A DNA stretch of 64,000 bases. It comes from Capitulum mitella (lineage: Eukaryota; Arthropoda; Thecostraca; Pollicipedomorpha; Pollicipedidae). Within the stretch, counting starts at the first letter, position 1. The number at the start of each line of letters is the position of its first letter. The notes under the pieces are model-generated. The model had not been told where the DNA came from and did not search any database. It worked only from the letters and a program-made list of their open reading frames with translations. Positions 2,102 through 12,619 of this stretch are shown piece after piece. The position numbers and the translations under genes were made by a program. The stretch covers positions 20,965,324-21,029,323 of the forward strand of contig CP099839.1 of assembly GCA_030062745.1 (NCBI GenBank). Reading direction: 5' to 3'.

Positions 2102-3427
2102 CTCCAGGAGGCGTTGCGCACTTTTGATAGTTCTTCTCGCCTTTAGGCTCTGCGGCACCATCCTGAAAACAGAAAAGGGTTATTACGTGTGCCGTGCCTT
2201 CGCAGTCAGGCATGGGCTCTGAATTTGCCGTTCCTGCTTTCTTCGTTTTAAATCAGTCAGAACGTGAAAGTACACGACAAGGCAACCCGATTCCATGTTA
2301 TGCTGAGTCGGCCGCGCGACCTTTCACTACGCCACCGATCCTTTCCGGGTATGAAGAGATAAATTCCAGTTACTGAATCAAATACAGCTGAAGAGACTTG
2401 CCGAGCTGCACAAACTCGTGTTACGGTCCCCCCGCGACCAGCATAACGTATTGGTCCCGCGCTCAACAATGGCCATACCACAGCAAGAGAACAGTCGAAA
2501 TGTTCGACGAATATCTGTTTCGTGCTAGGCGAAATAGGAGGCTCGGGGAGATGAAAGCGCTGGGCTGCGTTCAGGTCCTCAGGCTCTGTAGTGAAACTTA
2601 GTTTGTCATTTGTTTCCTAAACACACCACAGCCAGCAGCTGTAAACATTCCGACTCATCACATCGGATGTTTGAAACGTCACAATCACGTCACAGCTTGC
2701 CGTCGGACTTTGTGTGTCCTAATTTTTCCCGATAATGTCAAAATTATGGCCTCATGTTGATGAAACATTGCATATCGCCTTTTCAGCTTAACACCGGGCT
2801 GGTGGCCCTGTGAGAATGGCGCACACTGATGGAAAGGGCACATATTTCTTTTTTCTCCGCCCTCACACTCTGACTCATTCTACTGATTCCAACTTAAGTT
2901 TGTAGAAGGACTTCTGCGTAGTGATCTTACTGCCTTTGAACAAGTAACACCCCTTCATTTCTCCAGGTCAACTGAACCAATCACAACTAAATTTTGTGGA
3001 ACCTTGCATGAACTTGCATACCACAAAGCAGGGTCAGATTAATCGAGGTCAACGAGGATCAGTGGTCGATAATGCTGCATTTTGTACAAATGCAGCATAA
3101 TGCAATCTGGTTTATTGTTAATAGGTAGGAACCTCTTCCACATTCGTAAATCAAATGACGTAATGAGGCCATTCGAGGTCAACCAGGGCCAAAGAAATAC
3201 ATCATCATAGAATCCTGCACAGGTCATTTGGGTAAATCTAGAGGGAAGGAAAGACTGTTTGTGTCACAGAAAGAAAGTATTCGCTAATTAATCTTCGACA
3301 ACAGAAACTGACATTACCTAGCCTGTGTATTGTTTGAGACACCCGCATTCGTCATGCAGTTAAAGTCTCCCTAAGATTCCTGTGCGACCCCTTCATAAAA
3401 TGAGGCATTTTCAATACCTGATCCCAG
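2102..3427. other. no recognised feature
   Basis: Unique-looking sequence with AGGTCA-like words near 3048 and 3175 that may mark a decayed element. No coding signal was recognised. Confidence 0.35.
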
Positions 3428-3431
3428 TTAA

Positions 3432-4640
3432 CCCGCGCATGACCGTCGGTCGGTTTCGAACATGCGCGACTGGGGGGGGGGGGGCAATTGGCCACCCCCT
3501 CTCTGTCTCACGAAAGGTTGGTCGCACGATAAAAAATAAGCATACCGTTTGGAAGCTTGTGACGAGTAGAGCTCGAAATTGATCTCATTTTTAGTTTTAG
3601 ATAATATGTAAGCAATTTACGCTCTATATCTGTTTTCTCATAGCCGACTGCATGAGACCGAGAATTGGCCTGAATCTCAAGGGTTGTGACTAATAACGCA
3701 TAGGTAAAGGCAACAGCGCACAAGTAAAGGTCCACGGATGCCGATACAGTCTACTTTCCCAGACTTGTTCAATATATACGCCGAAACGTTGAATTAAAGA
3801 CACAGCAATTCTCGCGCCAGCTGTCGGCGTGCGCCGGTGTCGTATGCAGTAATAAATTGACGAAAACTAATTTTAGCGTTCCTTTATTTTCGCCAAAAAA
3901 GCCTATTTATGTAAATTTGATTGATCTTAGTGGTTCTTGTGATGGTTTTTCATGCTTAAATTTTGGGAAAATTCATTAGTTACCAATCTAAACAACTGGC
4001 GGAGCTTTATTCGCGAGAGTCTGTTTATTTCCAAAATATGCTATTTTTCGAACTTTTTGAGGTTCCTGGTATTACTTACTTCTGTGCAAGCTAGTTCTGC
4101 CATTTTCTACCCATTCTGAGTAATTCATCGATGATTTTGACGGTGGTACATTTTGGCTCACTACAGCTATTCGTGACCTGACCTCAGGTCAATGGCTGGA
4201 AGTCACTGATACTTTGCTCAATGACGGTAACTAGATGTCTGCTTCACTCCACACTAAAAATGTTATGAAATATTCCGTCAGTTTCCGAAAAAACGACGAC
4301 ATGTCTTAAAAATGGGCTTGAGCTTAGGTCAATGACCTGGCCGAAAAATCTGAGATAGCGGATTTGTTGCATCTATCACGATCACTAATCCCTGAAAGTA
4401 TTATTGAGATATCTTGTTTTGCAAAAAAGTTACAGGGCGCTAAACTTTTTTGGACATGAGTCTGTTTCACCTGACCTGGGTCAGGCACCTAACCTGACCT
4501 GAGGTCAAAATTTTGACAAGAGATGTAAAATTAATGAAGCAAAAGGTACGCAAAGTTTCGTGACTCTCTGTTCATTCGTTGTCTCGCAATCCCAGAAAAA
4601 CCTCAGGGGTGGTCAACGGCCCTCCCCAGTCGGGGACGGA
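3432..4640 (+). mobile_element. non-autonomous TTAA element, family B copy 1
   Basis: About 1.2 kb, closely similar along its length to 42403-43620. The left end is TTAA then CCCGCGCATGACCGTCGG. The right end is CCAGTCGGGGACGGA next to TTTA, a mutated TTAA. Subterminal G-runs at the left mirror C-runs at the right, forming imperfect inverted ends. The body carries several TGACCT/AGGTCA words. No transposase is coded. The TTAA target and CCC ends point to a piggyBac-type element moved in trans. Confidence 0.8.
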
Positions 4641-5278: not shown

Positions 5279-5480
5279 CTATTGCGGAAAGTAGCGCTGC
5301 AAGTCGAAGTGGCTCTGGTCCACCACAGGCGCGAACGGTCGTGGCCCGGCGGGCTTATTGGTGACCACTCCCTGTCGGGCTCCTGCTGGTGCCGGGGCCG
5401 GCTGTGACTGGCGCGAACCGCCCTCCTCCAGAGCCTCCACATCAGCCCAGAACTGGCTGTACGACTGCAGTACAGTCACG
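5279..5480 (-). CDS. Reeler gene exon 3: last Reeler strand and C-terminal tail
   Basis: The acceptor reads CTGTCCGCAG|CGTGACTG. The exon supplies the third base of His136, then VTVLQSYSQFWADVEA, the closing strand of the Reeler domain, then a low-complexity tail with SQPAPAPAGARQG, ending HFDLQRYFPQ and TAG (complement of 5279-5281). The first bases of this exon and its acceptor are repeated many times in the neighbouring intron (array 5468-5865), so which acceptor is used rests on frame and domain fit. Confidence 0.87.
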
Positions 5481-8400
5481 CTGCGGACAGAGGGTGGGAT
5501 TAGAGGCCACCACAGTACGGTCACGCTGCCAGCAAGAGGAGGGGCCACAGCAGCACTGTTATGCTGCCAACAGGAGGAGGAGCCACAGCAGCACAGACAC
5601 ATTGCCGACAGAGAGTCGGGTTAGAGGCCACAGCAGCACAGTCACGCTTCCAACAGGAGGAGGGGCCACAACTGCCCAGTAACGCTGCCAACAGGAGGAG
5701 GAGCCACAGCAGCACAGACACACTGCCGACAGAGAGTCGGGTTAGAGGCCACCGCAGCGTAGTCACGTTGCCAACAGGAGAAGGGGCCACAGCAGCAATC
5801 ACACTGCCAACAGAAGAAGGGGTCCTTGCAGCACAGACACGTTGCCGACAGAGGTTCAGCTCAGACGCAGTCACACTCACCTGGCATGACATGTCAGGTC
5901 AGAGCAAGGGTAACGTGGGGTGAAACGCACCAAAAACTTTCAACTGTTACTGTGTTATAATCCGTCACTGTACGAGCTTCATGTAACTTTTATATGAAAG
6001 GTGGTTCATTTATCTCATTACAACCAATCTGTTAATACACTGTCTTGACTTCAAACATATGAAAATCGAGTCTTTGCAAGACATTGCAGAAATGCTTCGT
6101 ATCTCTTTCAAGGGTAAGACGCCTTCTAATCAGGGATAAGAAGCCTTCTGCCTACGGCCTTACCCCAACGACATCACTGAATAAAAACCAGGACTTCCAG
6201 GTGGAGGACAGCGTGCAACACCTGTCGGCTGCAAGCCTAGGGTTGTCCATGAATTAGGTGTCGCTGATACGGCCAATGCGTGATCAAGCGTTACAGCGGG
6301 AAGGGTGGGAGGCTGAATCAGCGCTAAGTTATGATGTCACGCCAAAGATGAAAGGAGGTCAATAGATACCCAAAATACTAAAAAGAAAAATCGTTAACGA
6401 GTCGTGTAATTCTGGCTTCTGGTTAACGACGCTGGTAACTGAAATAAGCGACTGGCAGGGAGAGGGCTGTTGGTTGGGCGTTACGAGATTTGAAGGGCGA
6501 GGTTTGACTGACTGTTACGTAATTTTGGGGTGGGGTCTGACTGACCGTTACGTAATTTTGGGATGGGGTCTGACTGACCGTTACGTAATTTTGGGGTGGG
6601 GTCTGACTGACCGTTACGTAATTTTGGGCTGGGGTCTGACTGACCATTCCGAATCGTAGCAAGAGGAAGTTAGAAAAAAACCCTAAAATGTATTCAGTAA
6701 TTTATGAGAACAACAGATCTCAGAGCCGGACTGGCCTCCTGATAAGGACCGGGCAGTGTTTGAGTTACCCTGGGACCGGACCGGTCTCCTCGTAAGGACC
6801 GGGCGGTGTTTGAGTTACCCTGGGACCGCGCCGGCCTGGCTGCTCAGTCTCATGTTCCGTGCTAGCTGAAGTGATTTGCTCGGCCCGCGGCATGACTCGC
6901 AGTGAGTCCTCGCCAGCATTCGTTATTTGGGGACCTTCGACAGAACAAGGGGTTGGTGCGACCTCCCCAGGCATATCCGAACCTGACGTAATAGAGCAGC
7001 GAGCTGAAAACGAGCAAGTGGCATGGCCTTTGGCCACACCGTGATACCCCGTTTGACCCTTTTACGTTACACGGTAACCTTACAGGCAGCCTCAAATTAC
7101 GTCGTGTTAGCAGATTCTGGTTTTCATTGGATAGTATGGAACGTAACGTGTAGGGAGCTTTTAAGGGAACACAATAATTTTTAACCTTGAATAAGAGTTC
7201 AAATCACTGTTTTAATGGAAATCACTGCCTTCGACTACATTAGATCCCTCTGAGATGATAGAAGACCACAAAAAAACAGTGATCTCAACTGATGATTTTT
7301 GCCCAAGATGGTCTGACCCAACTAAGTGCTACGGAGTAGAGATCATTGACACCGTGATTGACATCCAGGTATAGGATCTAATAAGACTGCCGTAAAGCAC
7401 TTAAAACGTCCGCTCTCCGATAAAGACCCTCGCCGAAACGTTATTTCTCCATGATATCTCCTCGAGAACGAGGTCTTAGGTCGATGACCTGTCAAAGCAA
7501 TGGGCCCAGATTTTTAGACGTGTAAAAAAGTTTCAGACTCAGCTCTGCAAAAATTCGCAGTGACCCAAGCAGTGGTTTTGTGCCAGCCTACAAAAAAAAA
7601 TCTCAGGGGGATTGCACCAAGCCCCGGACTGGCAAGCGATCGGCACCGTTACACCCGCCCGAGCCACCTGTTCCGGCTGGTGGTCGCTTGACATATGTAG
7701 GTCTGCCTGGACGGGCCTGACGCCAAAGCCTAAAGCGGCACATTTAACAAGATTTCGAATGAAACGTAAAAAACGTAAATCTTCTGCATTTTAACTCGCC
7801 ACGGTCAAATGCCTGTCCTGCGGCGTAGGCGGATACACAGATGTGACTTCGACAAGCAAAAACCAATATGTCAAACTAACTCTGCAATGCTGACAGTCAA
7901 ATGCTGCGCCGCAGTTTGCTTCTCCTGTGATTGAATTTTCTATTTTAGTCGTATCTATCCAGCCCACTGCAGGGCCTCGGCGCTGGGCGGCCCTGGGCCG
8001 GGGTGGAAGCGGCGTCGATCGATGCGAATCTTCTGTGTACACCACTGACATGGTGACGCCGGCTGGGAGTCAGGGTGACTGTGGCATGACATGGCGTGGC
8101 TATGTGGCGAGAGGGCGACCTGGTGAGACGCCGCCACGTCGTCTGCACGCAGCGCGAGCGAGACTCAGAACGCGGACGGGATAGAAGTAGACCTGGATGG
8201 CCGGTCTAGCCGAGACAATGTCAAACAGATACGAAGCCCTGGGCACTAGATTCTGTGCACGTGACGCTGGATCATCTGGTGCTTTAGACATCAGGGCCAA
8301 GGGTTTCACGTCACGCAGGCAGGGGCCCAGAGAGTTGCGTGCCGGGCAAATGAGACAACAGGCACGACACCGCGGTCCTCACAGCATGAAGGCAGAATAT

Positions 8401-11400
8401 TTTACCATTGAGTTCCTGGACAAATGTTGACATTATGTTGCATTAAACGCAGTCACCCCTGCAGTTTTGGGCCCCTCGCGCTGACAAAAGGAGCACGAAA
8501 GTGCCTGATTTACTTTCTGATGCGACAGAAACGCCAGACTTCCATTAAGGTAGTCTCCAGTGGAACAGGGTTGCGAAAGAGTGACTGAGCGAACCGTGCC
8601 GACCGGGCGGAGTGAGACTGTGCGTGCCGACCGGCCGAGTCTGAGCCACTCACTGCATCGAGACGTCCTGGCGGCCGGACCAGGTGACCGCCACACTGGC
8701 CTTCTCGCTGCGGTCGGCGTGGGTGAGCGCGGCGCACTCGTTCATCAGGTTGACGTTGTCCACTGGCTGCCAGTTGCCCTGACCAGTGGCCGCCTTGCCC
8801 GTGCTGGGGTCACGAGCCTGCACCATGAAGCCCTTGAAGTAGTTGTTTCCTGACGACCTGATCACCACTGAAATGAGTCCGACCGCCATCAGCTGAGACG
8901 GGTCACAACTGGGGCCAGCGACGATCGCCATCCACCGAGACGCGTCACGACTGGGGAACGCCGACTCCTCGTCATCAGCACATTACGAAGCAGGGCGGCT
9001 GTTCCCCGGACAAACAAGCGAGCCGAGAGCGGTCAACATACACGGCATTGTTGGTGGCAAGGAATGTAAATGACAGAAGGTGAGTGACAAGGCATTATAA
9101 AAGATATTGCCAGTTGCGCGTAAACATGGATAATATCCAGGATTGACATGCGCTTGCCCTTTCAAACCAGAATGGTGGCGCAAAAGACGTTTTTAGCTCG
9201 TTTCAGAAAAAAATGGTTTCATTAGTTCACTTGAAAAATATCAAGCTTGTTATTATTTGCGCAAAGTTTTATGATCCCAAAATAATCCTCAATATAGCAT
9301 GTCAAGCTTCTTTTCCATCTTTTTTTCATTGGACACATTGATTGACGACTTCCAAATCCCTAGGATATCAGTAACAGGATATTGCCGGAAGGATGGTCTG
9401 CTGCACTGGACGAGGGCACCAAATGGGACATACCGTGTTTAGGTGAGTATGATGAGTATGATCAGTACCCAAGTAAGTACCGGGTATTCTGTTCGGGGAC
9501 GTGGGAGGACTAACCGGGCTTCGTTTGCAGCAAGTGGCCCACGACAGTGCGAAGGATGCTTTGCAAAGCGAGGAAAGCCACGTTGCCAAGCTGGCGAGGA
9601 TTTCGTTCAAGTGACTGCGTTTAGCTGCGGATCGAGAAAGCTACCCAGGCTACTGCTTTGTTCTCCAAGCAAGGACGCCGCAGCTTCCGATTGCCCATGG
9701 GGCATTTCGACACATTAATGTCCATTTTCAAAGCCCCGGGTGTTTGGTTAGGTTATGAACATTTCAGTTAGTTTTTTAAACATAACATTTAGTTACGTTC
9801 AGAATGCCGGTTTTGATACGTTAAGGTGCATTGGGATACATCAGGAGCCTTTGGATTGCTCAGAGGCTATTTTGAACGTCGTAAAGTTGTTTTGATAGCC
9901 CATGGCCCATTCCACACCTCGGGAACCCTTGTTTAGACCGCAGGAGATGCCTTTGGGCAGAAGAGTAAGAGTAGATAAGACTCTTCAGTAGATAAGAATC
10001 CCACTCATAACTGTCTTTTTGACTTCCTACACATCGGGGCCGCTTTGGTAATGCTGGGAACCTTTTGATGTTCTCAAACTCTTTAGAACCACCTTAAGTG
10101 AGGGCGAAGAGGGTGTTTTTGGGCACGCTTTGTCGTTCGAAAAGGACCCTCCATGGCGTCAGGGAGGGCAGATGTCCTAGTACAGTCTGAATGATCTCTC
10201 TTTCGCAGCTTATTTGGTAGCCTGAGATGTGCCTCAGCGATTTTAAGTAACACAGCACCACGCAGGTAGCGTTCTTGATATTCCAAGGATCCAATGCGAT
10301 CAACAGCTGTTGGGGGTTCACTGGACCTAGGAGGTCAATGATTTACCGCATGGGTTCTTTGGTGTTGAAACCTGCGCTTTAATTGACGTCAACGTCATGA
10401 AAATGACGTAAAGTTGAGGAACTACACAGGGAAGGAAAGAAAATGGGGAAATATTAGGTCGTTTGTGATAAAAGACGCATTGCACGAAAAGGCCACCGAT
10501 TAGCTCCACTTCTAAATATTACTCTCTGGTTGTACCAAACGCTTGCATGAAAGCAACTTCCCTCCATGGATACAGGATCAGATAACTGATGCTGCACGAG
10601 GAAATCGTCGCGGTACTACAGTTAAACCGACTAGATTCACGTGCACCTGGTCTGCCTGGCTACTCTGTGGTGCCGTATGGAATGGCACTGGGGGTCGCCA
10701 GCGGAGCCGGCTGGCCGCGGTCTCCCGAGGGCGGCTCTGCGGCCCATTGCACAGGAGTTTCGTCAGGTTGGCGACGGCGGCGCGGCGCCGCCAGAGCCGC
10801 CCCCGGCGGGGTCGGTGAAAGTGTGCCGCCGCCATGGAAAGGCGGCTGTCGGCCGGCCGTCGGCCTGTCCGACCCCTGGCTGGTTCGGCCGAGCGGAGCG
10901 TGGCCCAGAGGAGGCCCGGGCTCCGGCGAGATATGCCCGGCCCGCCGACGCGGCGGCCAGCTGGAGTTTCACACGGCGGACGCGGAGCGCACTGCTGGTC
11001 CCGACTGCAAATCGCCGAGCCCGCCGCTGACTGGAAGTGTATGCGAACATGGCACGGCGAAACCGTGCTCGTCGTGCACTGGTTACGCGCGGAATAAACG
11101 AACGTCGCTCTTTTTATGTCGTCAGACGGTCGGGTGGTGAAGGACGTGAAGATCTCCCTTGTCCGGTGCGAATCTCTCCGGTGACTGCGTCGGTGGCGCA
11201 TCAGCGCACCACTGCTTTGCACGTCCTTCGTGAAAGAGATCACAACTCAAGGAGCACCGTCACAAGCCGAAACGAATCGCTGCCGGAGCAGGAATTCTCT
11301 GTGATTCACCTGCCATTGACTATCGTCTCTAACGTAAGGCCATTGACTAAGGAGAAGGAAAAGTCGTCCCGCACCTTCCCGAATTATCTGTTGAACTAAT

Positions 11401-12619
11401 GAGCGTTTCTGAAAACTTAAGCGGCAATCGACAGCCCTGTATCTTGCAACCTCGAAACATCAAAAGAAGTATGTCCAGGGCAATAATGAGGTCACAGGTC
11501 GTGTTTAGGTCCAGTGTTGCTATGTTTTTATAATCATCGCCGGTGAAATGCAAGATGCCGTCACATTTTACTCGTGTCTCATGGCATATAACTTACATAC
11601 GTCAAGCACGTCGTGTACATTGACTTCCTCGATATTTGCTCGGGTTCAGCTGGCGGGTTATAGAAAAAGAATACAGCAGACATGTTTGAGACCCTTCCCT
11701 GGACTACTGACGTTCTTGATTCGAGCAGATCGCACATCAGAATGCGTCTTGATGAATGTTTCGTTGCAACCACACCATGGTCTTTAACACACCAAGAGTA
11801 TTCAGGCGGCGCCACCATGGTAGAAATAAATGCTTATTTCTCACCCAACGATCGCGGGTTCAAGCCTCGGTAGCGGCGGTTCTTTCGCATGCCGTTTATG
11901 ACATTTTCCGATGTTTCGGCCTATCAGAGCAAAAATAGGTTAAACACAAATCGAAATTTTTATTACATGGTACAGGAACAAAATGTTTGAAAGCTCTGAG
12001 AAGACGGTGGCCTCCGACATCCTACAATTACCAAACCAATCCGGGTGGTCAACTCCGACAGCCTAAAATTACCGAACTAACCCCGGTGCCCACCTCAGGC
12101 AGCCTATTGTTGCCGAACTAACCGTGGTGGCCAACTCCGACAGCCTTCAACTACCGAACTAACCCTGGCCGTCACCCCGGGCAACCCATAATTACCGAAC
12201 GAACCATGGCCATCATATCTAACGTCCTATAATTACCGAGCTAACCCCAGTGGTTACTTCCGACAGTTCGTAAGAATCGAGCTAACCCTGGCTGATATAT
12301 TCAATGCCCATGACTTTTTGAGCTGGCGGAGAGGCGCAAATGCATTTTCCCTACACGTCAGCCTGGAATAAATATGATACACAGCCTCCTCTTTCGCGTA
12401 TGGCGAGCATGGCTGAGGCAGCTCACCTTTGACCCCACCCTGGTACGTCTGCCGGGTGACGCTGAAGGGCATGGTGCGCGGGTCCTGGCTGCGGGCTCCG
12501 CTGTGGTTCGGCACCATGCCGCGCAGGCATGCTTCGATCGGCGCGCCGCTAGGGAAGGCCCACAGCGGCGCCGCACAGCCGGACACCAGCAGCAGCAGCG
12601 GCAACACCTGGCCGGACAT
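5279..12619 (-). CDS. Reeler-domain secreted protein (putative defence protein), 3 coding exons
   Basis: Three minus-strand exons, 12619-12427, 8867-8654 and 5480-5279, join in frame (193+214+202 = 609 nt) into 202 residues plus a stop. Residues 1-21 form a signal peptide with a leucine core, probably cut after LWA. The chain then starts FPSGAP, the usual start of a mature Reeler domain, with a cysteine at 31 and a second at 109 (context NECAALTH) that would form the domain disulphide. YFKGFMVQARD (74-84), TW (126-127) and the closing strand HVTVLQSYSQFW (136-147) fit Reeler proteins, as in insect and crustacean defence proteins and noduler. The last 55 residues are a Pro/Ala/Gln-rich tail with no known domain. 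The product should be secreted. Arthropod relatives are linked to immune responses, but that role is inferred here. Phases are 1 at intron 1 and 2 at intron 2. UTRs are not defined. Confidence 0.88.
5468..5865. repeat. minisatellite built from the Reeler exon 3 acceptor junction
   Basis: About ten imperfect units of roughly 38 or 45 bp, in a repeating order of short and long forms (units 3-5 resemble units 6-8). On the minus strand most units carry a pyrimidine-rich stretch, a GGCAG or GGCAA, then a GTGACTGTGCTG-like sequence. This is the same layout as the true exon 3 acceptor and the first bases of exon 3. The first unit overlaps the exon itself. Confidence 0.85.
5866..6504. other. Reeler intron 2, no recognised feature
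   Basis: Unique-looking intronic sequence. No exon, RNA gene or repeat was recognised. Confidence 0.5.
6505..6650. repeat. 33-bp tandem repeat, four units
   Basis: Near-identical units of TGACTGACCGTTACGTAA followed by TTTTGGGGTGGGGTC. Because 33 is divisible by three, frames stay open on both strands and would read LTDRYVILGWG repeatedly on the plus strand. It lies in Reeler intron 2, so coding is unlikely. Confidence 0.9.
6725..6837. repeat. 50-bp tandem duplication
   Basis: Two units containing TAAGGACCGGGC, GTGTTTGAGTTACCCTGG and GACCG, plus the start of a third. They differ at a few bases only. Confidence 0.8.
6905..7195 (+). repeat. repeat family I, copy 1 (TTAA-type element fragment)
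   Basis: Diverged match to 36788-37065. Shared blocks include CCTCGCCAG at the start, CCGAACCTGACG, GAAAACGAGC against AAAAACGAGC, GATACCC-GTTTGAC and CTTACAGGC. Its left end has lost the TTAA seen in copy 2. The right boundary is not defined. Confidence 0.6.
7196..8653. other. Reeler intron 2, remainder
   Basis: Contains AGGTCGATGACCTG and other AGGTCA-like motifs near 7480 that may belong to a decayed element, and a moderately GC-rich part at 7970-8190. No exon was recognised. Confidence 0.4.
8654..8867 (-). CDS. Reeler gene exon 2: core of Reeler domain
   Basis: The acceptor is CTCATTTCAG|TG and the donor CGATGCA|GTGAGT. The exon begins at phase 1, completing GTG (Val65) with the last base of exon 1, and ends at phase 2. 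It codes residues 65-135 and two bases of His136. Visible motifs are YFKGFMVQARD, a second conserved cysteine in NECAALTH, and the ASVAVTW strand before the exon end. The match to the Reeler fold is clear. Confidence 0.9.
10640..11110. other. CpG-rich patch inside Reeler intron 1
   Basis: Strong CpG and GC enrichment with long open frames on both strands. One ATG (10834) has a good context, GCCGCCGCCATGG, but the protein matches no family that I know. It could be an alternative first exon, a promoter of another transcript, or an unmethylated repeat. Confidence 0.35.
12013..12290. repeat. 41-bp tandem repeat, about six to seven units
   Basis: Degenerate units of a TCCGACAGCCT-like segment, then ATTACCGAACTAACCC, then a variable GGTGGTCAAC-like segment. 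The array lies 137 bp inside intron 1 from the exon 1 donor. Confidence 0.85.
12427..12619 (-). CDS. Reeler gene exon 1: signal peptide and start of Reeler domain
   Basis: The ATG (complement of 12617-12619) opens MSGQVLP followed by a hydrophobic stretch, and the signal peptide ends near LWA. The exon codes residues 1-64 plus one base of codon 65. The donor reads AAAG|GTGAGC, with the GT at 12426-12425, close to the consensus. An upstream in-frame reading frame exists through GC-rich DNA, but this ATG is chosen because it puts the signal peptide at the N-terminus. Confidence 0.85.

Follow-up and report, generated by a model that had tools for sequence, protein, structure and literature searches.

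How one acceptor is chosen among several good ones is a long-standing question in splicing. It is raised at this locus of Capitulum mitella by a gene in which nine diverged copies of an acceptor junction stand in a row against the real site, and which invites the further question of what, if anything, the copies do. The gene lies on the minus strand of the window (the whole stretch of 64,000 nucleotides that was analyzed, C1:20965324-21029323), within an assembly of 477 Mb in 16 contigs that was searched along with it. The three coding exons found, at 12619-12427, 8867-8654, and 5480-5279, encode a protein of 202 residues that has a Reeler domain and, apparently, a signal peptide. Exon 1, placed by its open frame and its donor (AAG/GTGAGC), would hold the signal peptide and the start of the Reeler domain; exon 2, with the acceptor TTTCAG, the donor GCA/GTGAGT, and phase 2, continues the domain; and the coding part of exon 3 runs from VTVLQSYSQFW to QRYFPQ, with its stop codon at 5281-5279. 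When exon 3 is joined at the real acceptor, the product matches positions 3 to 131 of the 131-position Reeler profile at 68.4 bits. The last intron (intron 2), of 3.2 kb, splits in phase 2 the codon preceding the VTVLQSYSQFW strand, and the first bases of exon 3 fall, by the profile match, in the conserved end of the domain. A PDB search with the Reeler protein gave a single chance-level match (E of 0.6), and no Rfam match at the gathering threshold was found across the window. The Chitin_bind_4 cuticle domain has at least 150 matches in the genome (150 of 627 candidates scored), which mark it as that of an arthropod.

The real acceptor module occupies 5481-5503 on the minus strand and comprises CTAAT, a pyrimidine tract, and CCGCAG, with the AG at 5481-5482, where the first-pass annotation had put it. 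The nine copies of the intron 2/exon 3 junction fill 5504-5864 on the same strand and abut this module. Their order is A1 B1 C1 A2 B2 C2 A3 B3 C3 (unit starts at 5864, 5826, 5790, 5745, 5707, 5669, 5624, 5586, and 5548), followed in register by the real site (5503), which occupies the next A position. Units of 36 to 45 bp are thus grouped by three into a higher-order repeat with blocks of 119, 121, and 121 bp. Block H1 (A1, B1, C1; 5746-5864) is the most diverged, agreeing with both H2 and H3 at 93 of 119 positions; H2 (A2, B2, C2; 5625-5745) agrees with H3 (A3, B3, C3; 5504-5624) at 107 of 121. The greater divergence of the outer block resembles a diverged-edge pattern, in a series of three blocks only. 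Tandem Repeats Finder (TRF) reports a repeat of period 121 at 5467-5853 (score, 497), close to the 5468-5865 originally claimed for the amplified row, and one of period 38 at 5502-5813 (score, 226).

We slid the real 36-nt junction (23 intron and 13 exon bases) over the two strands of the window, 127,930 placements in all. Apart from the self-match, the eight top placements, with 22 to 29 of 36 bases matched, are all minus-strand units of the array, and the best placement beyond it reaches 21 of 36. B1, one of 11 placements scoring 20 and hence at chance level, was assigned as the ninth unit by its register in the series rather than by its score. Amplification of the exon 3 acceptor junction into a row, as first proposed, is therefore borne out. 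About 13 to 19 exon bases are copied per unit. Over the 23 intron bases the A units are closest to the real site (16 to 19 matched; CTAAC is present in A2 and A3), and over the 13 exon bases C2 and C3 are closest (12 matched). The proposal that each unit carries the tract, the CAG, and the first exon bases holds for the copied junction as such, but the AG itself is retained in only six of the nine units (B1, A2, B2, C2, B3, and C3) and has become AA in A1, C1, and A3. Immediately 5' of the array, at 5875-5883 on the minus strand, stands a donor-like CAG/GTGAGT at which no known exon ends; its CAG scores 2.37 as an acceptor on the approximate matrix described below.

Repeats that bear splice sites have precedents. 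A minisatellite of the interferon-induced gene 6-16 (IFI6) reportedly contains multiple splice donor sites (Nucleic Acids Res, 1995); its units resemble those of the Reeler array in bearing splice sites, but these are donors, whereas the Reeler units copy an acceptor junction and no donor junction. The closest likeness is to the mirages described in amphioxus Adh3, the globins BflGb6 and BflGb9, TnC, and PGBD5 (PMC3087553; PMC3902484), which are minisatellite-like tandem duplications of an intron/exon boundary, with homogenization within a cluster. As the kind is described for amphioxus, central units are homogenized and those at the edges diverge more, normal splicing is left undisturbed, and the number of units differs among haplotypes or cells. 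Many but not all of the amphioxus units retain their AG or GT, as do six of nine here, and the Reeler repeat unit likewise spans a boundary, in a gene whose Reeler match runs across the junction. The first-pass annotation had called amplification of a splice junction unusual; given the amphioxus descriptions (PMC3087553) and the recurrence of the same kind of array in this genome (see below), that description is not supported. The Reeler array differs in belonging to an arthropod and in its 36- to 45-bp units within a 119- to 121-bp higher-order repeat, compared with unit sizes of 150 to 160 bp for BflGb6 and 10 to 72 bp for Adh3 (PMC3087553). Variable internal tandem repeats that, at an exon-intron boundary, can alter gene structure have also been described in human segmental-duplication genes (PMC2812944), but there they are treated as repeats inside exons that may create introns, whereas the Reeler intron is old. 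A prawn lectin family (PMC7536079) was considered as a further mirage and rejected, as the repeats described there are within exon 2 and the alternative acceptor is in exon 5. We found no arthropod mirage in the open-access literature searched.

The amphioxus model of intron gain by tandem duplication predicts junction-spanning tandem repeats (PMC3087553), and the Reeler repeats could on that ground be read as a record of the birth of intron 2. The paralogues argue against this. One paralogue, L010 (C8:24.14 Mb), has an intron at the same position and in phase 2, followed by an exon start reading ATLLQSYSVFW, and a more distant Reeler gene (L011) shares the intron position and phase with the window gene; the intron was thus not created by the duplication. 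No copy of the L010 acceptor junction was found within 2 kb of it. Because both paralogues share the intron and L010 is without junction copies, the intron appears to be old and the junction to predate the array. Since, moreover, the copied exon bases lie in a conserved domain and the intron is present in paralogues, we take the junction to be ancestral and the array to be its copy. The repeats are also confined to one end of the 3.2-kb intron. A record of intron birth is accordingly the least credible of the readings weighed here. Separately, L010 has a short repeat (25 bp, 2.1 copies) about 180 nt upstream of its acceptor, in which no junction copy was found.

The more interesting fact about the Reeler array is that its kind recurs in other genes, chaperonins included. 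Four chaperonin loci (L035 to L038), out of seven regions initially sought, were examined for real acceptors, and two of them (L036 and L038) contain acceptor arrays. The L036 exon matches T-complex protein 1 subunit beta (CCT2-like). Upstream of it are 11 copies of its own acceptor, with a main spacing of 55 bp, at locus positions 1950-2620 (G000:C5:25675149-25675819). Their identities over 52 bases are 51, 50, 48, 48, 43, 42, 40, 37, 36, 34, and 32; two copies are identical to the real junction at 39 of 40 bases, and the AG is present in 10 of the 11. Any of these copies, if used, would add a stop to the extended exon. The zeta subunit match, L038 (CCT6-like), has an array in minus orientation at 3016-3590 with a 207-bp period. 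Its clear copies, at -433, -226, -319, and -523, match 42, 40, 39, and 37 of 48 bases, and two weaker ones, at -98 and -603, match 30 of 48, the -98 copy being one base out of register. All six carry CAG, and only two exceed the threshold of the survey given below. A donor is copied in L011, where the exon end CDEAKYQ plus GTGAGC (donor CAG/GTGAGC) is followed into the intron by decaying copies of exon end and donor (8696-9031, minus strand; TRF, 2.7 copies of 36 bp). Past the TRF repeat there are three more matches of 22 to 24 of 36 bases, the best elsewhere in the 10-kb locus being 21; a fourth match, at 20 of 36, was discounted as lying within that background of 21. This is, in one arthropod genome, a new record of acceptor mirages in CCT2-like and CCT6-like genes together with a donor mirage in a Reeler gene.

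We take the CCT2-like and CCT6-like genes to be essential. Close junction copies before exons of such genes must therefore be compatible with correct splicing. Since the real site of the CCT2-like gene hardly differs locally from its best decoys, position or exon context must decide between them, if the gene works, and its array would allow position and context to be told apart from local sequence. By analogy, the choice of site in the Reeler gene is probably made in the same way. The recurrence also bears on the idea that the Reeler array is an artifact of assembly or came to the exon as a piece of a dispersed satellite or transposon. Minisatellites are indeed common in this genome, taking up 6839 of 200,000 bases (about 3%) in 20 sampled stretches at a period of 15 to 200 and at least 2.5 copies. 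Against this idea, a genome DNA search with 5440-5900 matched its own locus only, very common words being skipped; the L036 array likewise has a single place in the genome search; and each of the other junction arrays copies its own exon. We regard a dispersed or artifactual origin as very improbable.

How often junctions are copied was estimated by a crude survey in which a local copy was defined as a match of 28 of 40 bases or better within 2 kb. Such copies accompany 4 of 29 acceptors with the window site included (3 of 28 without it) and 1 of 23 donors; control 40-mers have them in 133 of 2094 cases within these loci and in 270 of 4960 across 20 further stretches. The L038 acceptor (profile position 259) and, for L011, the second donor had been added to the survey by hand after their arrays were seen. 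With these positives and the window site removed, 2 of 27 acceptors and 0 of 22 donors remain, one of the two acceptors, in L037, having a single copy at 29 of 40, just above the threshold. The L012 donor, which was not found, an L035 intron (67-65) without a junction, and an L037 intron whose profile gap was wide were left out; two introns of L038 yielded no junction. In this small and partly biased sample, the counts fit copying of junctions at about the background rate, with no clear enrichment. Several such cases shift the Reeler array from a curiosity toward a background process. That splice-junction mirages are widespread in this genome, affecting perhaps several percent of junctions, essential genes with decoys almost identical to the true site among them, is a tentative extension to which we give somewhat less than even odds. 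If it is correct, position or exon context, and not the local acceptor sequence, must guide the splicing machinery to the copy next to the exon; the arrays would then offer a natural experiment in the choice of splice sites, as well as a reservoir for the evolution of exon edges.

The reading we prefer, with a probability of about 0.74, is that the Reeler array is a neutral minisatellite of the mirage type, made by local duplication, with splicing picking the copy adjacent to the exon. Because copying is seen in other genes of the same animal, the array would be a by-product of local duplication rather than a special switch. The exon 3 acceptor junction may have been duplicated in place to give units of about 40 bp, each taking in the branch-point region, the pyrimidine tract, the CAG, and the initial 13 to 19 exon bases; a three-unit block of about 121 bp would then have been reduplicated by unequal exchange or slippage. 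The driving process is presumably the general tandem duplication behind the minisatellites of this genome, which here happened to include a junction. The real site would be the one mostly used, because it lies close to the exon body (exon definition) and has a branch point of its own, and the remaining copies would be silent or a source of low-level aberrant mRNA, the array having no function of its own. Arrays of this kind might persist because splicing takes the copy joined to the exon body.

The first-pass annotation held that uniformly poor acceptor scores in the units, along with reads using the real acceptor only, would make the row a neutral minisatellite. The unit acceptors do not all score poorly, however, and some of them outscore the real site. 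We scored them with an acceptor matrix of approximate values (the donor, acceptor, and branch-point weights are approximate too, and none are MaxEntScan scores) and with a matrix built from 26 inferred acceptors of this genome, 16 from chaperonins, picked by donor strength, and 10 from Reeler-family genes, placed by eye. Three doubtful acceptors ending in GAG or AAG were retained in the 26-site matrix and removed for the branch-point count, which uses 23. On the approximate matrix, the real site scores 6.88 and B1, A2, B2, C2, B3, and C3 score 7.52, 4.67, 6.95, 3.11, 6.95, and 6.95, respectively; on the genome matrix, these units score 2.07, 2.24, 4.30, 0.70, 4.30, and 5.52, compared with 3.41 for the real site. 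B2, B3, and C3 thus exceed the real site on both matrices, and B1 does so on the approximate one only. On the genome matrix, the real site beats only 8 of the 26 inferred acceptors. With three units outscoring the real site, sequence strength alone leaves the presumed silence of the decoys unexplained.

Of the sites that keep an AG, just two, the real site and A2, are preceded at 20 nt by a branch-point-like CTAAY without an intervening AG. A3 carries CTAAY in place, but its AG is gone; B3 could draw on this CTAAC, which lies 58 nt from it along a clear path. Motifs of branch-point strength (score of 5 or more) accompany 10 of the 23 inferred real acceptors, compared with 113 of 2372 CAGs in the window, and since so many inferred acceptors do without the motif, its absence cannot exclude a site. 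Two other marks that might set the decoys apart were rejected. A G at -5 is present in all nine decoys and absent from the real site, but 6 of the 26 inferred acceptors share it, including the L007 acceptor and one in L036, and it is carried also by the CCT6-like acceptor of L038. Masking of the decoy AGs by hairpins fails in that predicted accessibility does not tell the real AG from those of the decoys. The branch-point region of the real site is predicted to be more open (0.74 to 0.84, versus 0.40 or less for the others), a figure that is given no weight here, as it is one of several measures examined and was obtained without a shuffled control.

These strengths speak for a reading of the units as regulatory decoys that vie with the real acceptor for U2AF and the spliceosome. 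Intron 2 would then be removed more slowly, or less correct mRNA be made, and array length would tune expression. Besides the six AGs kept and the three units stronger than the real site, A2 is the most complete decoy, with a full module of CTAAC, tract, and CAG, and B3 is within reach of a branch point. The CCT2-like gene, however, has 10 AG-bearing copies, several of which are far closer to its real site, so that strong decoys seem to be tolerated; in the Reeler array, the AG is lost in two of three A units, and we saw no sign of maintenance. A regulatory role for the decoys is therefore unlikely.

The products predicted from decoy use vary from unit to unit. N-terminal extension of exon 3, which had been suggested from the outset, is open to one unit: the acceptor of C3, if used, would add 15 residues in frame, and it is the only one of the six AG-bearing units that is open into exon 3. 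B1, A2, B2, C2, and B3 would meet stops at 5523, 5523, 5644, 5561, and 5523, respectively, ahead of exon 3, B2 being in frame arithmetically and the other four shifting the frame. No coding exon was found beyond exon 3, so that premature stops in it need not provoke decay. One could accordingly imagine alternative isoforms in which C3 inserts its 15 residues and A2, B3, and others exchange the C terminus for a leucine-rich, hydrophobic, possibly anchoring tail. All nine units begin in the right phase, the junction with exon 2 reading H-V or H-I in each, and the A2 product reaches a top 19-residue hydropathy of 2.45 (VSMHVSVLLWLLLLLAALL). The leucines, however, are the translated pyrimidine tract, the repeat lengths of 38, 119, and 121 break the frame, and the stops vary among units. 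In the decoy products tested (C3, B3, and A2), moreover, the Reeler score falls from 68.4 to between 55.6 and 57.5 bits. We consider functional isoforms improbable, and under the preferred reading, that of a neutral array, such products would be at most low-level aberrant ones.

Other tandem arrays are present in introns 2 and 1 of the Reeler gene, at 6479-6653, 6726-6837, and 12012-12209, with periods of 33, 50, and 41/82, respectively. An ancient genome duplication has been reported in barnacles (PMC11331182). Two groups of Reeler genes each have members on both C1 and C8 (the window gene with L010, and L002/L006 with L007), which is the pattern that would be expected from a duplicated chromosome.
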